From Nocardiopsis changdeensis (lineage in GTDB: Bacteria; Actinomycetota; Actinomycetes; Streptosporangiales; Streptosporangiaceae), in contig NZ_CP074134.1 of the NCBI RefSeq assembly GCF_018316655.1, forward strand, positions 1 through 29,245: a stretch of 29,245 nucleotides of DNA. Direction: 5' to 3'. The number at the start of each line of letters is the position of its first letter. Positions within the stretch are counted from its first letter, which is position 1. Position numbers and translations under genes: made by a program. Shown here in pieces: positions 3,713-19,762 of the stretch. The notes under the pieces were generated by a model. That model searched no databases, was not told where the DNA came from, and saw only the letters and a program-made list of their open reading frames with translations.

Positions 3713-3761
3713 CCCGCTTCACAGCATCCTCCGAACCCCCGAACGAAAGGACATCTTGTTG

Positions 3762-4292
3762 ATGCTGTTCGCCGCACTGCTGGCCGGTCACTGGATCGGC
3801 GACCACTGGCTCCAGAGCAACCGCCAGGCCCAGGACAAGGGCCTGGCGGGCCACCACGGCCGGTCCTGCTGCACCTGGCACGTGGCCACCCTCACCGCCG
3901 CCCAGCTCGCGCTGGTCCTCCTGGTGGCCGCCTACGACCCCGACACCTCCGTCCACCTCGCGCACCTGGCCCTGGGCCTGGCCGTGAACGCCGCCTCCCA
4001 CTGGTGGGCGGACCGGCGCCGCCCGCTGGAGGGCCTGGCCTGGGCCCTGCACCCGGTCTCCGGCAAACGCGACTACTACGGGACCGACTCCGGGCGGATG
4101 GCGCTCGATCAGGCGTGGCACATGGCCTGGCTCGTCCCGGCCGCGCTCATCATCGGCACCCCGGACCTGACCACCGCCCTGGGGCTGACGTGCTGCTCCA
4201 TCGCGGTGCTGCTGGGGTGCGACCTGCTCTCCCGGGCCGGATGGGGACTCGTCGCCCGCCGCGAACGCGCCGACGGCACCCTCCGCCCGTAG
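3762..4292 (+). CDS. DUF3307-like membrane protein
   Basis: This 176-aa protein has about four hydrophobic segments, near residues 1-15, 42-62, 70-85 and 120-155. His and Asp residues sit close to the membrane segments in an opening of the type LLAGHWIGDHWLQS and in HWWADRR, the pattern of the DUF3307 membrane family. The ribosome site GAAAGGA lies 11 nt before this ATG. A TTG six bases earlier is the alternative start. Function is unknown. Its place in the transfer operon suggests an envelope component. Family assignment is from recognition of the pattern only. Confidence 0.72.
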   Translation: MLFAALLAGHWIGDHWLQSNRQAQDKGLAGHHGRSCCTWHVATLTAAQLALVLLVAAYDPDTSVHLAHLALGLAVNAASHWWADRRRPLEGLAWALHPVSGKRDYYGTDSGRMALDQAWHMAWLVPAALIIGTPDLTTALGLTCCSIAVLLGCDLLSRAGWGLVARRERADGTLRP

Positions 4293-5392: not shown

Positions 5393-6556
5393 ATGACCAC
5401 CGCCACCGCGACCCGCACCGCCACCATCACCGGCTCCGCCGGCCACCTCGCCGACCAGATCGGCTGGGTCGCCGCCCACCTGCCCACCCGCCCCGCCGTC
5501 CCGGTGCTGGTGGGGGTGCGGCTGAGCGCCACCCCCGACGGGGCGGTGACCGCCCGCGGCACGGACTACGAGGTGTGGGCCTGCGCCGACCTGGACGTGG
5601 ACACCGACGGGCTCGTCGACGTCGTCCTCCCGGGCCGTCTGTTGTCGGCGCTGCTGTCCTCGCTGCCGCGCCACCTCATGGTCACCCTGGCCGTGGACCA
5701 CGACCAGGTGCGCGTCACCTGCGGCCCCACCCGTGCGAGCCTGCGCACCCTGCCGCTGGAGGAGTACCCGGACTTCCCGGCCTGGCCCGAGCCGCTGGGC
5801 ACCGTGGACGCGCACGACCTCGCCCAGGCGGTGTCCCGGATCGTCGCGGCGGCGTCGACCGACGTTGAGCTGGTCGCGCTCACCGGCATTCACCTCGCCT
5901 TCGGCCCGCAGGGCATGCAGGCCGAGGCGACCGACCGGTACCGGTTCGCGCTGGCGACCGCGCCGTGGACTCCGACCCTGGACGGCGACGACACCACCCA
6001 CACCGCGCTGGTGCCCGCCCTCACCCTGCACCAGACCACCAAGGCCCTCGCCAAGAGCGAGACCGTCAACATCGGCCGGGACGGCGACACGGTGTCCCTG
6101 ACCGGTGACGGGCGCCGCTTGATGACCCGGCTGCTGGACGGGGAGTTCCCCACCTGGGAGCGCATGCACACGCTCGCCCAGGGCCAGGACATCGAGGTCG
6201 ACGTCGCGATCACCGCCCTGCGCGACACCATCAAGCGCGTGTCGCTGTTCGCCGAGCGGACCACCCCGCTGCGCATCAGCATCACCGGGGAGGGCCTGGT
6301 GGTGCGCTCGGGCAGCGAGGACCTGGGGGCGGTGGCCGAGGACGTCGACGCCCACGTCGAAACCGACCGCGACCTGGTGGTCCACGTGCAGCCGCACTTC
6401 CTGACCGAGGCCCTGGCCGCGATCCCCGGCGAGACGGTGCGGCTGTCCTTCGGCCACCCCGAGAAGCCGTTCCTCGCCAGGCCCGGGGATGAGGAGCAGA
6501 GCGGTCTCATGTGGCTGGTCATGCCCGTCCGCCAGCCCACCGGGGGGACCCGGTGA
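5393..6556 (+). CDS. dnaN: DNA polymerase III beta subunit (sliding clamp), accessory copy
   Basis: This 387-aa protein has the three-domain length of bacterial beta clamps. Recognisable signatures are EEYPDFP in the domain 1/2 region, ATDRYRFALA in the middle domain, LLDGEFPTW before domain 3, and a C-terminus MWLVMPVR like the usual MPMR end. The clamp encircles DNA and tethers the replicative polymerase. The genes around it are unlike the chromosomal dnaA-dnaN-recF order, so this is an element-borne extra copy. It starts at ATG after GAGAGGA. With DnaB and an initiator on the same element, it may favour the element's own replication (inference). It overlaps the following gene by 4 nt. Confidence 0.93.
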   Translation: MTTATATRTATITGSAGHLADQIGWVAAHLPTRPAVPVLVGVRLSATPDGAVTARGTDYEVWACADLDVDTDGLVDVVLPGRLLSALLSSLPRHLMVTLAVDHDQVRVTCGPTRASLRTLPLEEYPDFPAWPEPLGTVDAHDLAQAVSRIVAAASTDVELVALTGIHLAFGPQGMQAEATDRYRFALATAPWTPTLDGDDTTHTALVPALTLHQTTKALAKSETVNIGRDGDTVSLTGDGRRLMTRLLDGEFPTWERMHTLAQGQDIEVDVAITALRDTIKRVSLFAERTTPLRISITGEGLVVRSGSEDLGAVAEDVDAHVETDRDLVVHVQPHFLTEALAAIPGETVRLSFGHPEKPFLARPGDEEQSGLMWLVMPVRQPTGGTR

Positions 6557-11587: not shown

Positions 11588-11863
11588 ATGACGACCAACA
11601 CCCCCTCCTCCGGCCCGTCCGGGACGGTCTCCGTGCGCCTGGTGGGCGGCCACCCCCGCTGGGCCGGGCAGGTCCTGGAAGTCCCCCGCGCCGAGGTGCA
11701 CGACGCCCCGCTCGAGGACGTCGGCGCGTTCCTGAAGATCGAGGACGGGTCCTACCCCGACCACCTCGCGATGACCGAGGGCGTGGACTGGCGGGCCCAC
11801 TACGCCCCCGTCGCCGACGACGACCGGCAGGTGTGGCGGTTCCAGGGGTGGGTCCCCTCCTGA
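11588..11863 (+). CDS. Small hypothetical protein of actinophage/plasmid type
   Basis: This 91-aa protein begins at ATG 11588 after a GGGGG run. The sequence VRLVGGHPRWAGQVLEVP, an acidic middle and a closing VWRFQGW resemble the small beta-rich proteins with an LVGGPxDG-like opening often found in actinophages. The role of that group is unknown. It precedes the partition locus but is separated from it by the octad array. Confidence 0.65.
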   Translation: MTTNTPSSGPSGTVSVRLVGGHPRWAGQVLEVPRAEVHDAPLEDVGAFLKIEDGSYPDHLAMTEGVDWRAHYAPVADDDRQVWRFQGWVPS

Positions 11864-11880
11864 CCATCGGCACAGGTCAA

Positions 11881-11992
11881 CCGGCCTGCCAGCACACCAA
11901 TACACCGGTGTAAAGGCACACCGGCGAACCGGTGAGCCGGTGTATCGGCCCACCGATGTACCGACAAGCCGGTCCACCGGTTCGCCGGTGCA
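11881..11992 (+). repeat. Octad array 1, putative parS centromere/operator
   Basis: Fourteen consecutive 8-bp units run in exact phase from 11881, with consensus CCGGTGTA. Examples are CCGGTGTA at 11905 and 11937, CCGGTGAG at 11929, CCGATGTA at 11953 and CCGGTGCA at 11985. CCGG or a one- or two-base variant recurs every 8 bp. The array ends 18 bp before the parA ATG. It covers the place where a -35 box would be for a -10-like GATACT at 11998-12003. This is the arrangement of centromere-operators bound by ribbon-helix-helix partition proteins. Confidence 0.85.
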
Positions 11993-12010
11993 TGGGAGAT
12001 ACTCGCCGCC

Positions 12011-12718
12011 ATGAGCGATGAACCGAGGATCTACACGGTCGCCAGCTACAAGGGGGGCGTCGGCAAGACCACCCTCGCCAGCGAGCTGGCCTACGTCCTG
12101 GGCGCCGTGCTGGTGGACCTGGACTGGGACCGGGGGAACGCCACCCGCGCCTGGGGCTACCGCACCGAGGTGCGGTCCAACGCGCCGATGCTGGACGCCA
12201 TCGAGGCCGGACGCACCCCGCACCCGTTCAAGGGGGTGCGCAAGGCCGACCTGGTGCCGTGCCACGAGGACTTCGTGGAGACCCAGCCCGCCCCCGACGT
12301 CATGGCGTCCCTGCTGGAGCGGTGGGCGAAGGAGTGGGGGCGCGACCTGGTCGTGGACACCCACCCCGGCGGCAGCCCGTCGACCCTGGGCGCGATGGCG
12401 GCCGCGCACCGCATCCTGGTGCCGGCCCCGTTCGGCGAGAAGGAGCACGAGGCCCTGGAGGGGATGGTCCAGCAGCTCGCGGACTACCCGCTGATGGTGA
12501 TCCCCTCCCGGGTGCCGCCGGTGCCCCCGGCCCGCGACATCGAGCGGCTGCGCAGGATCACCGAGGCCGCCGGGGTGCCGGTGGGGCCGCCGATCTCGCA
12601 CTACGTGTGGCTGCCGCGCCGCACCCGCCGTATGGCGGTGAGCGCCCCGCCCGTCACCAAGCAGGGCCGGGGGTTCGCCGACGAGATCGCCGCGGTGGCG
12701 CAGGCGGTGGCCGCGTGA
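12011..12718 (+). CDS. parA: ParA-family partition ATPase
   Basis: This 235-aa protein has the deviant Walker A KGGVGKTT at residues 14-21 and a switch region VLVDLDWDRGNA near 33-45. A second acidic strand, LVVDTHPGG, is near 115. The length and lack of an N-terminal helix-turn-helix fit small type Ib ParA proteins. These form dynamic nucleoid-bound patterns that separate plasmid copies. ATG follows GATACT by 7 nt, so the transcript may be leaderless. The stop overlaps the start of the ParB-like gene. Confidence 0.93.
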   Translation: MSDEPRIYTVASYKGGVGKTTLASELAYVLGAVLVDLDWDRGNATRAWGYRTEVRSNAPMLDAIEAGRTPHPFKGVRKADLVPCHEDFVETQPAPDVMASLLERWAKEWGRDLVVDTHPGGSPSTLGAMAAAHRILVPAPFGEKEHEALEGMVQQLADYPLMVIPSRVPPVPPARDIERLRRITEAAGVPVGPPISHYVWLPRRTRRMAVSAPPVTKQGRGFADEIAAVAQAVAA

Positions 12719-13185
12719 GCAACGGACTGGACGACCTGACCCAGCGGCGCCAGCGGCGCCAGGCCCCGCCGCCCAAGCACCCGCGCACCCCGCCCGAGGC
12801 GGGGCAGGAGAAGAAGGAGGCGGCGACCACGGCGACCACCGAGCCCGCGAAGGAAGCCGCCGTCCCGGCCGCGCCGGCGGACCCCGAGCCCGCACCCAAG
12901 CGGCGGCCCGCCAAAGCCAAAGCGGCCGCCCCCGCCGAGCGCAGCGACGCCGCCCGGTCCAGGCGGACACCGTCGGTTGAGGCCTACCTGGACCAGGAGC
13001 TGATGGACTGGCTCTGGCAGATCGAGGCCGCGGCCGTCGCGCGCCGGGAGCGGTCGGTGGCCAGCCCCGCGATCCGCCTGGCGCTACGGGAGCTGAAGAA
13101 GAGGATGACCCCGGACCAGGTCGTGGACGCGCTGCTGTCCCAGACCTCGGAGCGGACGGGGCGCCCCGGGCGGCCACGCCGGTGA
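12715..13185 (+). CDS. parB: Putative centromere-binding protein (ribbon-helix-helix ParB)
   Basis: This 156-aa protein starts at a GTG overlapping the parA stop. Residues 1-85 are disordered, Ala/Pro/Lys-rich and basic. From about 87 a strand plus two helices can be seen (SVEAYLDQELMDWLWQIE; VASPAIRLALRELKKRM), the order expected of a ribbon-helix-helix fold. It lacks the HTH of ParB/KorB proteins. Small type Ib systems pair ParA with such proteins, which bind short tandem repeats and stimulate ParA. Octad arrays lie on both sides of the operon, and the second begins in its own last codons. The fold is inferred by eye. Confidence 0.75.
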   Translation: MSNGLDDLTQRRQRRQAPPPKHPRTPPEAGQEKKEAATTATTEPAKEAAVPAAPADPEPAPKRRPAKAKAAAPAERSDAARSRRTPSVEAYLDQELMDWLWQIEAAAVARRERSVASPAIRLALRELKKRMTPDQVVDALLSQTSERTGRPGRPRR

Positions 13186-13242
13186 ACCGGTACACCCGTA
13201 CACCGGCCTACGTTTACACCGGTGTATTGGTGAGCCGGTGTG
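13179..13242 (+). repeat. Octad array 2, second putative centromere block
   Basis: Eight units in exact 8-bp phase start at the end of the ParB-like gene: CCGGTGAA, CCGGTACA, CCCGTACA, CCGGCCTA, CGTTTACA, CCGGTGTA, TTGGTGAG, CCGGTGTG. They share the CCGGTGTA consensus of array 1, so the partition operon is flanked on both sides. Confidence 0.82.
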
Positions 13243-13283
13243 CCCATGCGGATCCGGCCTGGTCAAGGGCCCGGAAATGAAGC

Positions 13284-13310
13284 GGGCCCGGCGTGTTGCA
13301 CGCCGGGCCC
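13284..13310 (+). terminator. Perfect 12-bp stem-loop after partition locus
   Basis: GGGCCCGGCGTG at 13284-13295 pairs with CACGCCGGGCCC at 13299-13310 around TTG. It probably ends the parAB transcript. Confidence 0.7.
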
Positions 13311-13595
13311 TGGAGATGCCGCCGTTGGGCAGCTTCGGCCTCACGTCCACCGAGGTGGGGAGACGGCGCGTCCTCCACGCACTGAGGCCACCGTACAAGG
13401 CGGCGGCGCCCGTCGCACCTGGGAGGGGACTCCTCCGGGGCCTGTCCGGCTCACCGGGAGGGTGCTGCCGCTCGCTTCCTGTACGGGTCTGGGGATCCCG
13501 GCACCGGCCCCGGACAACCCCCTGAGCGCCTTCTGGGGGGCTCTGGCAGACTCCCAGGGGAATCACCCCCCTGTCCCGCCTGGAGGAGCCCGTTG
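13311..13595 (+). other. Gene-free stretch with possible RNA structure
   Basis: No convincing gene is seen here. GGCCTCA at 13337-13343 pairs with TGAGGCC at 13383-13389 around an interior that can also fold (CCACCGAGGTGGGG). The gene at 13596 has a GGAGGA ribosome site near 13582-13588. The middle of the gap shows nothing else that I can support. Confidence 0.35.
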
Positions 13596-14138
13596 ATGCT
13601 GTCCTGGCCCGACGCAGTGACCGTCGCGCGCACCGCCCTGTGGCGCCACCGCGTCGAATCCCGCCAGCCGGGTGTCGACCCCGACGAGGGCGTGGACGTG
13701 GACCTCATCGAGACCGTGCTGGCGTGGCTGGTGCAGGAGGCCGGCGACCCGCGCGCGCACCGGTGCGCGGTCGTGATGCCGCTCCGCCTCCCGGCCGAGG
13801 CCACCGTCTACCAGCGGGCGCTCCTGGACGCCGCTGTCCGGTCCTGGGAGCGGGTGATGCCCCACGTGCACACGCTGGCGGCCGCCGACGCTCTGGGCGA
13901 GCACCTGGGCGCCGTCCCACCCGACGCGGAGGAGACAGCCGGGGTGGCGTTGCAGGGCGCCGACGGCCGGGTGGCGTGCCCGGTGTGCGGCCGCGACGAG
14001 GGCCTGGTGTGGCTGTGGGACGGACAGATCGTGCGGGGCCGGTGCCCGGCCGGGGACGGTGAATGGACTCCACGCCCCTACATCGGGGCGCCCGTGTGGG
14101 AGCAGATCTCCGCCGCGGTGAGGGCCAGTGCTGGCTAG
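13596..14138 (+). CDS. Hypothetical protein with C-terminal zinc motif
   Basis: This 180-aa protein starts at ATG 13596, 7 nt after GGAGGA. A TTG immediately before it is an alternative start. The N-terminal part is helical (residues 1-110). Residues about 128-155 contain VACPVCGRDEGLVWLW followed by RGRCPAG, a CPxC...C arrangement that could bind zinc. Trp-rich segments surround it. No family is recognised. It converges with a microprotein gene on the other strand. Confidence 0.65.
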   Translation: MLSWPDAVTVARTALWRHRVESRQPGVDPDEGVDVDLIETVLAWLVQEAGDPRAHRCAVVMPLRLPAEATVYQRALLDAAVRSWERVMPHVHTLAAADALGEHLGAVPPDAEETAGVALQGADGRVACPVCGRDEGLVWLWDGQIVRGRCPAGDGEWTPRPYIGAPVWEQISAAVRASAG

Positions 14139-16947: not shown

Positions 16948-18276
16948 CTACCCCTGGGGCATGTCCCGGAAGCGGCTGTAGTGCCCCTGGAACGACACGG
17001 TGATCTCCGCGGTGGGGCCGTTGCGGTGCTTGACCACGAGCAGGTCCGCCTCCCCAGCCCGCGGGGAGTCCTTGTCGTGCACATCCTCGCGGTGCAACAG
17101 GATCACGATGTCGCTGTCCTGCTCGATCGCGCCGCTCTCACGCAGGTCCGACATCTGCGGCTTCTTGTCGGCGCGGTCCTCGGACTTGCGGTTGAGCTGG
17201 GACAGTGCCACCACGGTGACCCCCAGCTCCTGGGCCAGCAGCTTCAATGCGCGGGAGATCTCGGTGACCTCCTGCTGCTTGCTGTCGTAGCGGCCGTCGG
17301 TCTGCACCAGCTGCAAGTAGTCGATCACCACCATCCGCAGCCCCAGGGACCGCTTGATGCGTCGGCACGCCGCGCGGATCTGGGCGAGCTGGCTCACCCC
17401 GGTCTTGATCACCAGCTTCGAGTCGCTGATCACAGGCATCGCTGCCCGCATCGCCTCCCAGTGGTAGTCGTCCACCATCCCGGACTTGATGCCGTGCAAT
17501 GGCACCCGTGCCTCGGCTGAGAGCATCCGGTCGACGATCTCCTCCTCGCCCATCTCCAGGGAGAAGAACGCCACGGTCTCCCCCCCGCGGAACGCCGCCT
17601 CGCGGGCCATGTCCAGAGCCAGGGTGGTCTTGCCGACTGCCGGGCGGGCGCCGATCACGATCATCTGCCCGGCCAGCAGGCCGCTGGTGAGGGCGTCCAG
17701 GTCAGCAAACCCGGTCGCCAAACCCTGAAGGCCGCCGCCTTTGGCTGCGCGCTGTTCGATGCGGTCCATCGCGGCGGGCAGGTAGTCGGCCGGCAGCGGG
17801 TCTTCCTCTTTGGTCTGGGTCTGGGTGATCGCGAGGATCTCGCCCTGGACGGCGTCCACCAGGTCCACCGGGTCGCCCTGGGCGGCGTAGCCCAGCTGGG
17901 CCGCGCGGGTGCCGACCTCGATCAGGCGGCGCAGCAGGGCGTGGTCGAACACGATGCGGGCGTAGTAGCCGGCGTTCGCGGCGGTGGGGATCGCGCTGGT
18001 GAGGGTCGTCAGGTACAGGGACCCTCCGGTGCGGGCGGACTCACCGCGGCGGGTGAGCTCGGCGTTAACCGAGACGATGTCGACGGGCTCGCCCTGGTCC
18101 ATGAGCGAGCAGATCGTGGTGTAGATGACCTGGTGTGCGGGCCGGTAGAAGTGTCCGGCCGCCAGGACCGCCATGACGTCCACGGCGGCGTCGGCGGAGA
18201 TCATCATCCCGCCGAGCACGGCCTGTTCGGCCTGGAGGTCGTGCGGGGGCATGCGGGTTTCGTCGGTATCGGTCAT
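16948..18276 (-). CDS. dnaB: Replicative DNA helicase DnaB
   Basis: This 442-aa protein starts at ATG 18276 behind GGAGA. It has the N-terminal DnaB domain (PPHDLQAEQAVLGGMMIS at about 10-27) and a linker. The RecA-like C-terminal motor has Walker A GARPAVGKTT at about 209-218, FFSLEM near 238-243, Walker B VVIDYLQL ending near residue 323, and LSQLNR. The enzyme unwinds DNA as a hexamer at the fork. It is the second gene of an initiator-dnaB pair, as in many phages and plasmids, which implies loading by the upstream initiator. No intein or truncation is present. Confidence 0.95.
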   Translation of the reverse strand: MTDTDETRMPPHDLQAEQAVLGGMMISADAAVDVMAVLAAGHFYRPAHQVIYTTICSLMDQGEPVDIVSVNAELTRRGESARTGGSLYLTTLTSAIPTAANAGYYARIVFDHALLRRLIEVGTRAAQLGYAAQGDPVDLVDAVQGEILAITQTQTKEEDPLPADYLPAAMDRIEQRAAKGGGLQGLATGFADLDALTSGLLAGQMIVIGARPAVGKTTLALDMAREAAFRGGETVAFFSLEMGEEEIVDRMLSAEARVPLHGIKSGMVDDYHWEAMRAAMPVISDSKLVIKTGVSQLAQIRAACRRIKRSLGLRMVVIDYLQLVQTDGRYDSKQQEVTEISRALKLLAQELGVTVVALSQLNRKSEDRADKKPQMSDLRESGAIEQDSDIVILLHREDVHDKDSPRAGEADLLVVKHRNGPTAEITVSFQGHYSRFRDMPQG

Positions 18277-18303
18277 GCTGGTGTCTCCATCCCATGGGTG
18301 GGA

Positions 18304-18341
18304 GGGGCCGGACGTCGCCTGCAAGCTGAGCGTCCGGCCCC
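18304..18341 (-). terminator. Stem-loop between initiator and dnaB
   Basis: GGGGCCGGACG at 18304-18314 pairs perfectly with CGTCCGGCCCC at 18331-18341. It sits inside what should be one operon, so partial termination or processing between the two genes is likely. Confidence 0.55.
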
Positions 18342-18363: not shown

Positions 18364-19668
18364 TCAGGAAGAAGCGTCGGCGGGTGCCAGGCGGGCGGCC
18401 AGGTCCGGACGGCGCACCGGCCCGAACCGGTTGAGCAGCAGCTGGGCCATGCGCGGGTGCAGGAACGCGCACACCGGGCAGTCCAGCGGCTCGCGGTGCT
18501 CAGCACACACCGCGTCGGGGCCCGTGGGCTCGGATGTGCCTGCGCGGCCCTGAGGCGCACGCTCACGCCTAATCTCGCCAAGACGGTAGGTGAGGTCCTC
18601 CAAGCGGAAACCGTTGATGTAGGAGCTTGGAGAGCCCACCGGGCGCCCACGGCGGCGCGCATGTTCCAGCAGCGACTCGATGAGCTTCTCCGCTTCCTCC
18701 TTCGTCGCATCGGTGCGGCGCATCACGATCTCCGCAGCGGTTTCGCCGTTCTTAGCCGAAGGCTTCTCCTCCTCTTCATCAACCCAGCCCGACCCGGCAC
18801 GGGCGGGAGCCTTCGCAGCCTCCTGTGACACCTGATGACGAGGAGCTGACAAGGACTGATGAGGAAGGGGTGCACTGGGCTGCACCCCATGGGGTGCACT
18901 GGGCTGCACCCCATGGGGTGCACTGGGCTGCACCCCACCAACGGGGGAGGGTGCACTGGGCTGCACCCCTTCCGAAATGCGGTTTTCCTCGGAGGGGGTT
19001 GCGGAGATGACGGTTGGGTCGGTCAGGTCATCCACCCCGACCCATGCCGTGGTGGGACCGTTGCCGTAGTCGAGACGGACGCGCAGCGGGGCCTTCTTCT
19101 TGCCCTCGCGGTCGGTGAGTTCCACGACTGTGGCCTTCTTGCCTGCGTGAACCACGGTGTTGCCGAGGCCGTACCAGCACACGAGCGAGTGGGCGCGGGA
19201 GCCAAGCCGCCAGCGTGCACGGGGAAGCCCGTCCTTGAAGAACCCCTCACGGTCGGCCAGTTCCTGCAACCGCCGACGAAGTTCGGCTCGATCCTCAGCC
19301 GTGACCTCACGAGCGGTGTAGGAGTCCAGGCGCCGGTCCTTCTTGGGACGCTCCGTTTCAGGGAAGGGCCGCCCGGTGCCGCCCCACAGGTCCCACGGGC
19401 CGTGGATACGCAGACGACTCACGGTCTGCTTGCCCTGTTCGTTGAAGCACTCCAACACGGAGAGATAGCCCGTGTCGGTGAGCGCTTTGAGGTGGTTCTG
19501 GGCCTGGCGGGTCTCCATCTCGGAGTCCGCTGCCAAGGTGTCGGGCTTGATCGCCCAGGACTTGGTGTCGTTGTCGACGGTGTCGGCGAGATTGGCCAGG
19601 ATGAGCTTGCGGCCGGGGATCTTGCCGAAGGAGAGGCGGCGCACGTAGGCGTAGGCCTCAACACTCAT
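18364..19668 (-). CDS. Winged-helix replication-initiator-like protein with in-gene iterons
   Basis: This 434-aa protein starts at ATG 19668; a GTG at 19698 is an alternative. Residues about 1-75 form a winged-helix domain of the plasmid/phage initiator type (KLILANLADTVDND...KPDTLAADSEMETRQAQNHLKAL). Residues about 234-268 contain four GVQPSAP repeats encoded by palindromic DNA iterons. This arrangement recalls lambda O and related initiators, where the origin lies in the gene. The C-terminal third has a helical domain and a CxxC (CPVCAF) with nearby Cys and His. The dnaB gene follows. I infer origin recognition and helicase loading. Confidence 0.8.
   Translation of the reverse strand: MSVEAYAYVRRLSFGKIPGRKLILANLADTVDNDTKSWAIKPDTLAADSEMETRQAQNHLKALTDTGYLSVLECFNEQGKQTVSRLRIHGPWDLWGGTGRPFPETERPKKDRRLDSYTAREVTAEDRAELRRRLQELADREGFFKDGLPRARWRLGSRAHSLVCWYGLGNTVVHAGKKATVVELTDREGKKKAPLRVRLDYGNGPTTAWVGVDDLTDPTVISATPSEENRISEGVQPSAPSPVGGVQPSAPHGVQPSAPHGVQPSAPLPHQSLSAPRHQVSQEAAKAPARAGSGWVDEEEEKPSAKNGETAAEIVMRRTDATKEEAEKLIESLLEHARRRGRPVGSPSSYINGFRLEDLTYRLGEIRRERAPQGRAGTSEPTGPDAVCAEHREPLDCPVCAFLHPRMAQLLLNRFGPVRRPDLAARLAPADASS
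18867..18969 (-). repeat. Four palindromic iterons inside the initiator gene, putative origin
   Basis: Units at 18867-18888, 18891-18912 and 18915-18936 each read GGGGTGCA, CTGGGC, TGCACCCC, giving a perfect 8-bp inverted repeat with a 6-bp spacer and a 24-bp period. A fourth, 18948-18969, differs in one end base and starts 33 bp after the third. The repeats encode GVQPSAPH-type sequence. Tandem palindromes in an initiator gene are the hallmark of lambda-O-like origins. Confidence 0.8.
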
Positions 19669-19762
19669 GGGGGTCCGCTTTCTAGGCAGCCCTCGCACAG
19701 GTCACAGCACTTTCGGGTACCCAAAAGGTGCCCGATCGCTCCCCGTTCGGCTACAGTGGCCG

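Follow-up and report, generated by a model that had tools for sequence, protein, structure and literature searches.

A predicted two-part octad centromere around the parAB operon of a Nocardiopsis plasmid

We report that a plasmid of about 29 kb from the soil bacterium Nocardiopsis carries a parA-parB operon bordered on both sides by arrays of degenerate 8-bp repeats (octads), and we put at roughly 86% the probability that this locus belongs to the type Ib ParABS partition cassettes, with a two-part octad centromere that is read by ParB. The two arrays most likely constitute a bipartite centromere, a prediction that supplies a candidate centromere together with its candidate reader for a Nocardiopsis plasmid. 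The window, meaning the whole stretch of 29,245 nucleotides analysed here, corresponds to plasmid unnamed3 of Nocardiopsis sp. MT53 (NZ_CP080601.1, 29,246 bp). Its par locus shows the hallmarks of type Ib systems: a small Walker-type ParA that lacks an N-terminal DNA-binding domain, a small downstream protein that is not of the Spo0J type, and adjoining repeats.

Octads around parAB have been described before in cluster A mycobacteriophages. In the phage RedRock, parS-L and parS-R, each made of eight direct 8-bp copies, flank parAB and are recognised by ParB, and the RedRock parABS cassette stabilises plasmids (PMC7157519). According to the same source, the ParB proteins of 110 phages with a homologous ParA fall into no fewer than four families, and its authors suggest that ParB is under selection to escape incompatibility (PMC7157519). 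The first-pass annotation of this DNA had proposed that octads serving as the centromere of an actinomycete element would form a distinct class, a proposal that the phage precedent does not support: actinobacterial phages are already known to have octads, placed in this way, and diverse ParB proteins. What is new is a plasmid family with a ParB not detectably related to that of RedRock, a different octad core, and a survey of 34 loci. Our searches of the open-licence literature turned up no description of octads for this plasmid family, a result that argues only weakly that none exists.

Octad arrays on both sides of parAB

Direct reading and periodicity tests place array 1 (parS-L-like) at 11880..11991 and array 2 (parS-R-like) at 13178..13241, both on the plus strand. 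The 14 degenerate octads of array 1 read, in order, ACCGGCCT GCCAGCAC ACCAATAC ACCGGTGT AAAGGCAC ACCGGCGA ACCGGTGA GCCGGTGT ATCGGCCC ACCGATGT ACCGACAA GCCGGTCC ACCGGTTC GCCGGTGC, with the consensus ACCGGTGT and a pseudo-palindromic core, ACCGGT. The eight degenerate octads of array 2 are GCCGGTGA ACCGGTAC ACCCGTAC ACCGGCCT ACGTTTAC ACCGGTGT ATTGGTGA GCCGGTGT. Exact CCGG is present in 8 of the 14 units of array 1 and 5 of the 8 units of array 2, marking both as degenerate repeats, and the step of 8 runs without slips. Array 1 stops 19 bp short of the parA ATG, just ahead of the likely ribosome-binding site read directly from the sequence (GGGAGA, 11994..11999, plus strand), and the first octad of array 2 overlaps the parB stop codon. 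These readings bear out the first-pass annotation, which had described a parA-parB operon flanked by octads of consensus CCGGTGTA at an exact 8-bp step, 14 before parA and 8 after parB.

Each array also contains a perfect copy of a 12-bp palindrome, TACACCGGTGTA, one centred on an octad of array 1 (11901..11912) and the other within array 2 (13215..13226). The copy in array 1 is followed by AAGGCA, and the joint string, ACCGGTGTAAAGGCA, is also present in the Thermobifida plasmid pTH1; the flanks of the two copies are oppositely oriented. Directly past array 2, the minus strand can form a GC-rich hairpin of 12 pairs with a T-rich tail (13284-13310), a possible terminator for transcription arriving from the right.

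A small ParA and its ParB-like partner

The parA gene (12011..12718, plus strand) encodes a small Walker-type partition ATPase of 235 residues, as judged from Pfam, PHROG and alignments. The protein matches Pfam AAA_31 over residues 6-154 (E 4.8e-8) and the PHROG ParA-like family (8.2e-21), and its Walker motif, KGGVGKTT, occupies residues 14-21; neither Pfam nor alignments revealed an N-terminal DNA-binding domain. The parA stop is overlapped by 4 bp by the GTG start of the parB-like gene. A sigma-70 consensus scan of 11800-13620, which covers one promoter type only and expects almost no hit by chance, found no promoter.

The parB-like gene (12715..13185, plus strand), defined by gene reading and alignments of relatives, encodes a candidate centromere-binding protein of 156 residues. 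It is present in one copy in the host genome, and a ParB search of plasmids returned three records. The protein matches no Pfam or PHROG family at E 0.1, no PHROG at E 1, and no ParB/Spo0J domain in Pfam; raising the Pfam threshold to E 10 gives two matches only, both unrelated-looking. Across 21 ParB relatives the N-terminal motif is mostly shared, the linker is variable, and the C-terminus, TPSVEAYLD-helix-SPAIRLALREL, is conserved. The N-terminal motif (NGLDDL...RR..RQ.PPPKHPR, residues 3-24, 12721..12786, plus strand) is kept in most relatives of one alignment (A4) and more loosely in another (A6), and we infer that it is a candidate ParA-activating tail.

The C-terminal domain (residues 84-130, 12964..13104, plus strand) consists of an RTPSVEAYLD strand, two helices, and SPAIRLALRELK, a layout that makes a ribbon-helix-helix (RHH) fold likely, as the first-pass annotation had proposed. 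Alignments show the strand-helix-helix pattern, and AlphaFold2 monomers contain the helices. The strand is absent from these models, and fold searches with models of the whole protein and of its C-terminus matched no RHH structure, which we do not take as absence of the fold. Weak matches to RHH_1 occur in relatives only (L148, E 0.15; L010, E 3.4). A profile search of the PDB gave four matches, among which TTHA0139 (E 0.19) alone aligned mainly over the RHH-like domain, and a profile of close ParB relatives gave one PDB match, at E 1.3.

A model of partition and its alternatives

These features suggest a model in which dimers of ParB, probably of the RHH type, would each bind a single pseudo-palindromic octad, with ACCGGT as the probable centre. 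Neighbouring dimers would pack every 8 bp along both arrays, each turned by about 274 degrees around the helix at 10.5 bp per turn, and ParA would be stimulated by the partition complex that the filled arrays form. The stimulus would come from exposed, basic tails at the ParB N-termini acting on nucleoid-bound ParA-ATP, which in turn would move plasmid copies apart and so stabilise the plasmid. ParB on array 1 probably also represses parAB, an autoregulation that is plausible because the array ends just upstream of the likely ribosome site.

The proximity of array 1 to the parA ATG, at only 19 bp, also suits a different reading in which the arrays are mainly a transcriptional operator, with ParB as an RHH repressor acting on parA through array 1 and on whatever reads across array 2, and partition proceeding via another site. 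One-sided arrays, as seen in five loci of our survey where only the upstream region is significant (L010, L145, L149, L150 and L151), are likewise in keeping with an operator. Array 2, however, lies downstream of parB, where no parAB promoter is needed. A weight-matrix scan for runs of five octads, using a matrix derived from the two arrays themselves, scored the arrays at 40.1 and 36.9 on the plus strand and 34.7 and 34.3 on the minus strand; no other place on the plasmid exceeded 8.8, so a third array of the same motif is absent from this plasmid. The octad sites of RedRock, moreover, are part of a plasmid-stabilising cassette (PMC7157519), and we consider a mainly operator role improbable.

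A partition cassette is also favoured over replication iterons, a reading in which the octads and the adjacent genes would act at an origin. Iteron origins typically have short direct repeats next to a gene for plasmid maintenance, but units of 8 bp are short for iterons, and the replication genes of this plasmid lie elsewhere (dnaB at 16948-18324, dnaN at 5393-6556). Replication of the cluster A phages tested does not depend on parABS (PMC7157519). We judge an iteron function to be more doubtful still than the operator.

An 8-bp period beyond base composition

The periodicity of the arrays is pronounced by several measures. All 13 CCGG inside the arrays keep one phase per array (8 in array 1, 5 in array 2), and stretches of 112 bp hold up to 8 in-phase CCGG at period 8 and at most 4 at any other period from 5 to 12. 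Each array has a lag-8 identity of 0.55, compared with shuffled means of 0.27 (array 1) and 0.26 (array 2), a value reached in 0 of 20,000 permutations of either; the 8-bp period foreseen in the first-pass annotation thus stands above shuffled controls. The peak recurs at lags 16 and 24, while the remaining lags from 2 to 15 are all at or below 0.31 in both arrays. The phase lock that had also been claimed holds within each array and fails between them, since their absolute phases are 0 and 2 mod 8. The 7.4-Mb genome has a single match to the pattern CCGGTNNNCCGGTNNNCCGGT, with its three in-phase CCGGT, and that match lies in array 1.

Scanning the whole plasmid, we found that arrays 1 and 2 are the top two lag-8 places in windows of 64 bp; in windows of 56 bp and 112 bp the second-best place lies near 5411-5472 rather than at array 2. 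Low-complexity, GC-rich sequence of which the period is a by-product would accord with the 513 copies of CCGG on the plasmid and with a 56-bp lag-8 maximum matched by 48 of 500 Markov sequences, but we reject such a composition artefact as next to impossible given the permutations, the single CCGG phases, a 112-bp maximum (array 1) matched by 0 of 500 Markov sequences, the lack of a period-8 signal in any of 58 control segments (450 bp each) drawn from the remainder of the plasmid, and the recurrence of period 8 next to parA in relatives whose motifs are quite unlike this one, some of them AT-rich.

Octads beside parA in related loci

Our survey covered 34 loci, namely 33 parA relatives from plasmid records and genomes (the window included) and phage RedRock. 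From 151 plasmid records with a parA match we took 20, hand-picked for spread, and left out the redundant copies L001, L003, L008 and L116 and the partial L125. Scans of genome contigs and viral contigs gave at least 40 and at least 60 loci, mostly with distant parA genes, which stand outside the survey counts. In each locus we scored periods 5-14 in a region of up to 450 bp preceding the ParA match and in 350 bp past the next gene against 100 Markov sequences per region, calling a period significant at z above 3 with 0/100 matches.

Period 8 was significant upstream in 18/34 loci and downstream in 12/34 (mean z 4.1 and 2.6), counts that include the near-copy pairs L154/L147 and L155/L146; the upstream figure may be 17 because the signal of L015, which is probably false, lies inside the annotated parA coding sequence. 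Octads near ParA homologs, which the first-pass annotation had suggested seeking in related plasmids, are common in this sample. Nine loci carry them on both sides (the window, L117, L118, L119, L120, L148, L152, L009 and RedRock). The counterpart of array 2 in pTH1 falls below significance (z 2.7, matched by 2/100). Control segments from other survey loci gave a significant period 8 in 1 of 63.

None of the 34 upstream regions was significant at periods 5, 7, 10, 11 or 13, and period 6 was significant in 2/34, 9 in 2/34, 12 in 8/34 and 14 in 1/34. Downstream, period 7 was significant in 0/34 regions, 5 in 1/34, 9 in 1/34, 10 in 2/34 and 12 in 4/34. Period 12 and other multiples of 3 probably reflect mainly coding sequence. 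On these counts we rejected heptads or any other period as the rule.

Octads accompany the RHH-like ParB C-terminus. They are found in 18/20 loci with such a C-terminus and in 2/11 others (Fisher p 1.3e-4), a comparison among related loci in which the class was assigned by eye, not blind, after the octad results were known, and from which L154 and L155 (near copies of L147 and L146) and RedRock were excluded. The two RHH-like exceptions without octads are L147 and L153. The two octad-bearing loci in the other group are L015 and L009, the latter with clear arrays and a partner protein that could not be called RHH-like.

A strong octad array, CATGNNNN, also lies in one of the redundant copies (L008:652-731), on the 144.8-kb plasmid NZ_CP080600.1 of Nocardiopsis sp. 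MT53, some 765 bp ahead of a parA gene; the partner of this parA carries the annotation of a ParB of the Spo0J type rather than of an RHH-like protein. The same stretch in L002 has a period-8 z of 11.5.

Variable cores at an 8-bp step

The octad core differs among loci. Across the 30 arrays compared, the core is mostly ACCGGT in the window plasmid, pTH1 and four more loci of the family (L117-L120). The array of Amycolatopsis pA387 has a GTAC-centred core, and the octads of Rhodococcus aetherivorans (GTTGCAAC), Mycolicibacterium pallens (GTTATAAC and TAaCGCTa) and Gordonia westfalica pKB1 (GTTGTAAC) differ again; RedRock has the core TCGA in octads like TCGAGTAG. Self-complementarity exceeded the column-shuffled mean in 30/30 arrays (mean z 1.55, lowest 0.05), a mild effect, with p values for single arrays from 0.0135 to 0.485. 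The dyad falls between two bases in 30/30 arrays, compared with 70% expected from column shuffles, although every periodic array contains a second dyad 4 bp from the first and the symmetry test does not pick the dyad of the dimer.

Differences in the core track differences in the predicted reader. The distance between octad motifs correlates with that between RHH-like domains (Mantel r 0.65) and with that over seven alignment columns of the predicted strand (r 0.63), each in 17 loci with 0/5000 permutations as high, a correlation that shared ancestry alone could explain. At the level of residues, PS[VI]EAY goes mostly with ACCGGT, and STIY, VSIY or ATVY with AACGTT or AGCGCT (for example GTTGCAAC and TAGCGCTA).

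These pairings raise the prospect of a general rule across actinobacterial plasmids and phages, in which dimer packing fixes the 8-bp step and the palindromic core is free to change with a few strand residues of an RHH-type ParB; we regard this as an even bet. If it is true, new centromere specificities and compatibility groups would arise by joint change of core and strand while the step stays constant, so that the pairing of strand residues with cores bears on the origin of plasmid compatibility groups. A constant step with a variable palindromic core would also allow centromeres to be found from sequence only in many actinobacterial plasmids.

In pTH1 (L004), ACCGGTGTAAARGCAYG occurs four times around parAB, with its ACCGGT at 1224, 1408, 2696 and 2805. 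About 200 bp separate the copy at 1224 from an octad run downstream of it (1424-1479), and the repeat may be a site for a separate regulator or one that ParB binds with high affinity.

Relation to known partition systems

The closest likeness is to the parABS of cluster A phages, which share the parA-parB operon, the direct 8-bp arrays before parA and after parB, and the small size of ParA and ParB. We detected octads in phages RedRock, Alma, EagleEye and CRB1, and those of RedRock are pseudo-palindromic, as in the Nocardiopsis arrays. RedRock ParB matches the PHROG Arc-like repressor family (1.4e-34) and Pfam RHH_1 (E 0.013). Unlike the phage systems, the Nocardiopsis cassette is carried by a plasmid, its core is CCGG rather than TCGA or TTACACAC-like, and its ParB has 156 residues compared with 89. 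The Nocardiopsis ParA is distantly homologous to phage ParA (hhalign E 1.6e-8, probability 95), and a tblastn search with parA gave no match in phages at 1e-5. Between the Nocardiopsis and RedRock ParB proteins homology was not detectable (hhalign probability 1.3), and the ParB of the relative L118 had no match in phages. We thus file the locus as a type Ib ParABS member that would work like the RedRock system, because octads and their placement are known from phages, and not as a member of the phage system itself, because its ParB matched no phage ParB family.

The repeat unit and the protein of pB171 par2 differ from the Nocardiopsis ones. In parH of TP228, which has a Gram-negative host, the boxes are non-palindromic ACTC, and a tetramer plus its 4-bp spacer presumably makes an 8-bp step. 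As is predicted for the Nocardiopsis locus, par2 has its centromeric sites, parC1 and parC2, around parA and parB (PMC4270457). ParFGH of TP228 pairs a ParA-type ATPase with an RHH protein and has degenerate tetramer boxes with AT-rich spacers in parH (PMC7308502). The delta-omega system of pSM19035 combines an RHH ParB with contiguous short repeats over promoters and one dimer per repeat (PMC9499535), an occupancy that we also propose for Nocardiopsis. Its repeats are 7-bp, non-palindromic WATCACW units in mixed orientation at six sites (PMC9499535), whereas the Nocardiopsis units are 8-bp and pseudo-palindromic, form two arrays, and have period 8 where omega heptads step by 7.

Further observations

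In CRB1, octads of the forms TTGTGTAG and TTACACAC follow parB (L160:1702-1765, period-8 z 4.8), in contrast to PMC7157519, where this phage appears to be without parS-R.

The window plasmid is called linear by PLSDB, but it is probably circular because a DUF3307 gene (3756-4292 in the window) spans both ends of the record NZ_CP080601.1. It encodes its own sliding clamp (dnaN) and replicative helicase (dnaB), which seems unusual for a plasmid of 29 kb. Beside dnaB, a minus-strand open frame (18364-19698) contains a perfect 24-bp tandem repeat, GGGGTGCACTGGGCTGCACCCCAT, in 3.0 copies (18867-18937).
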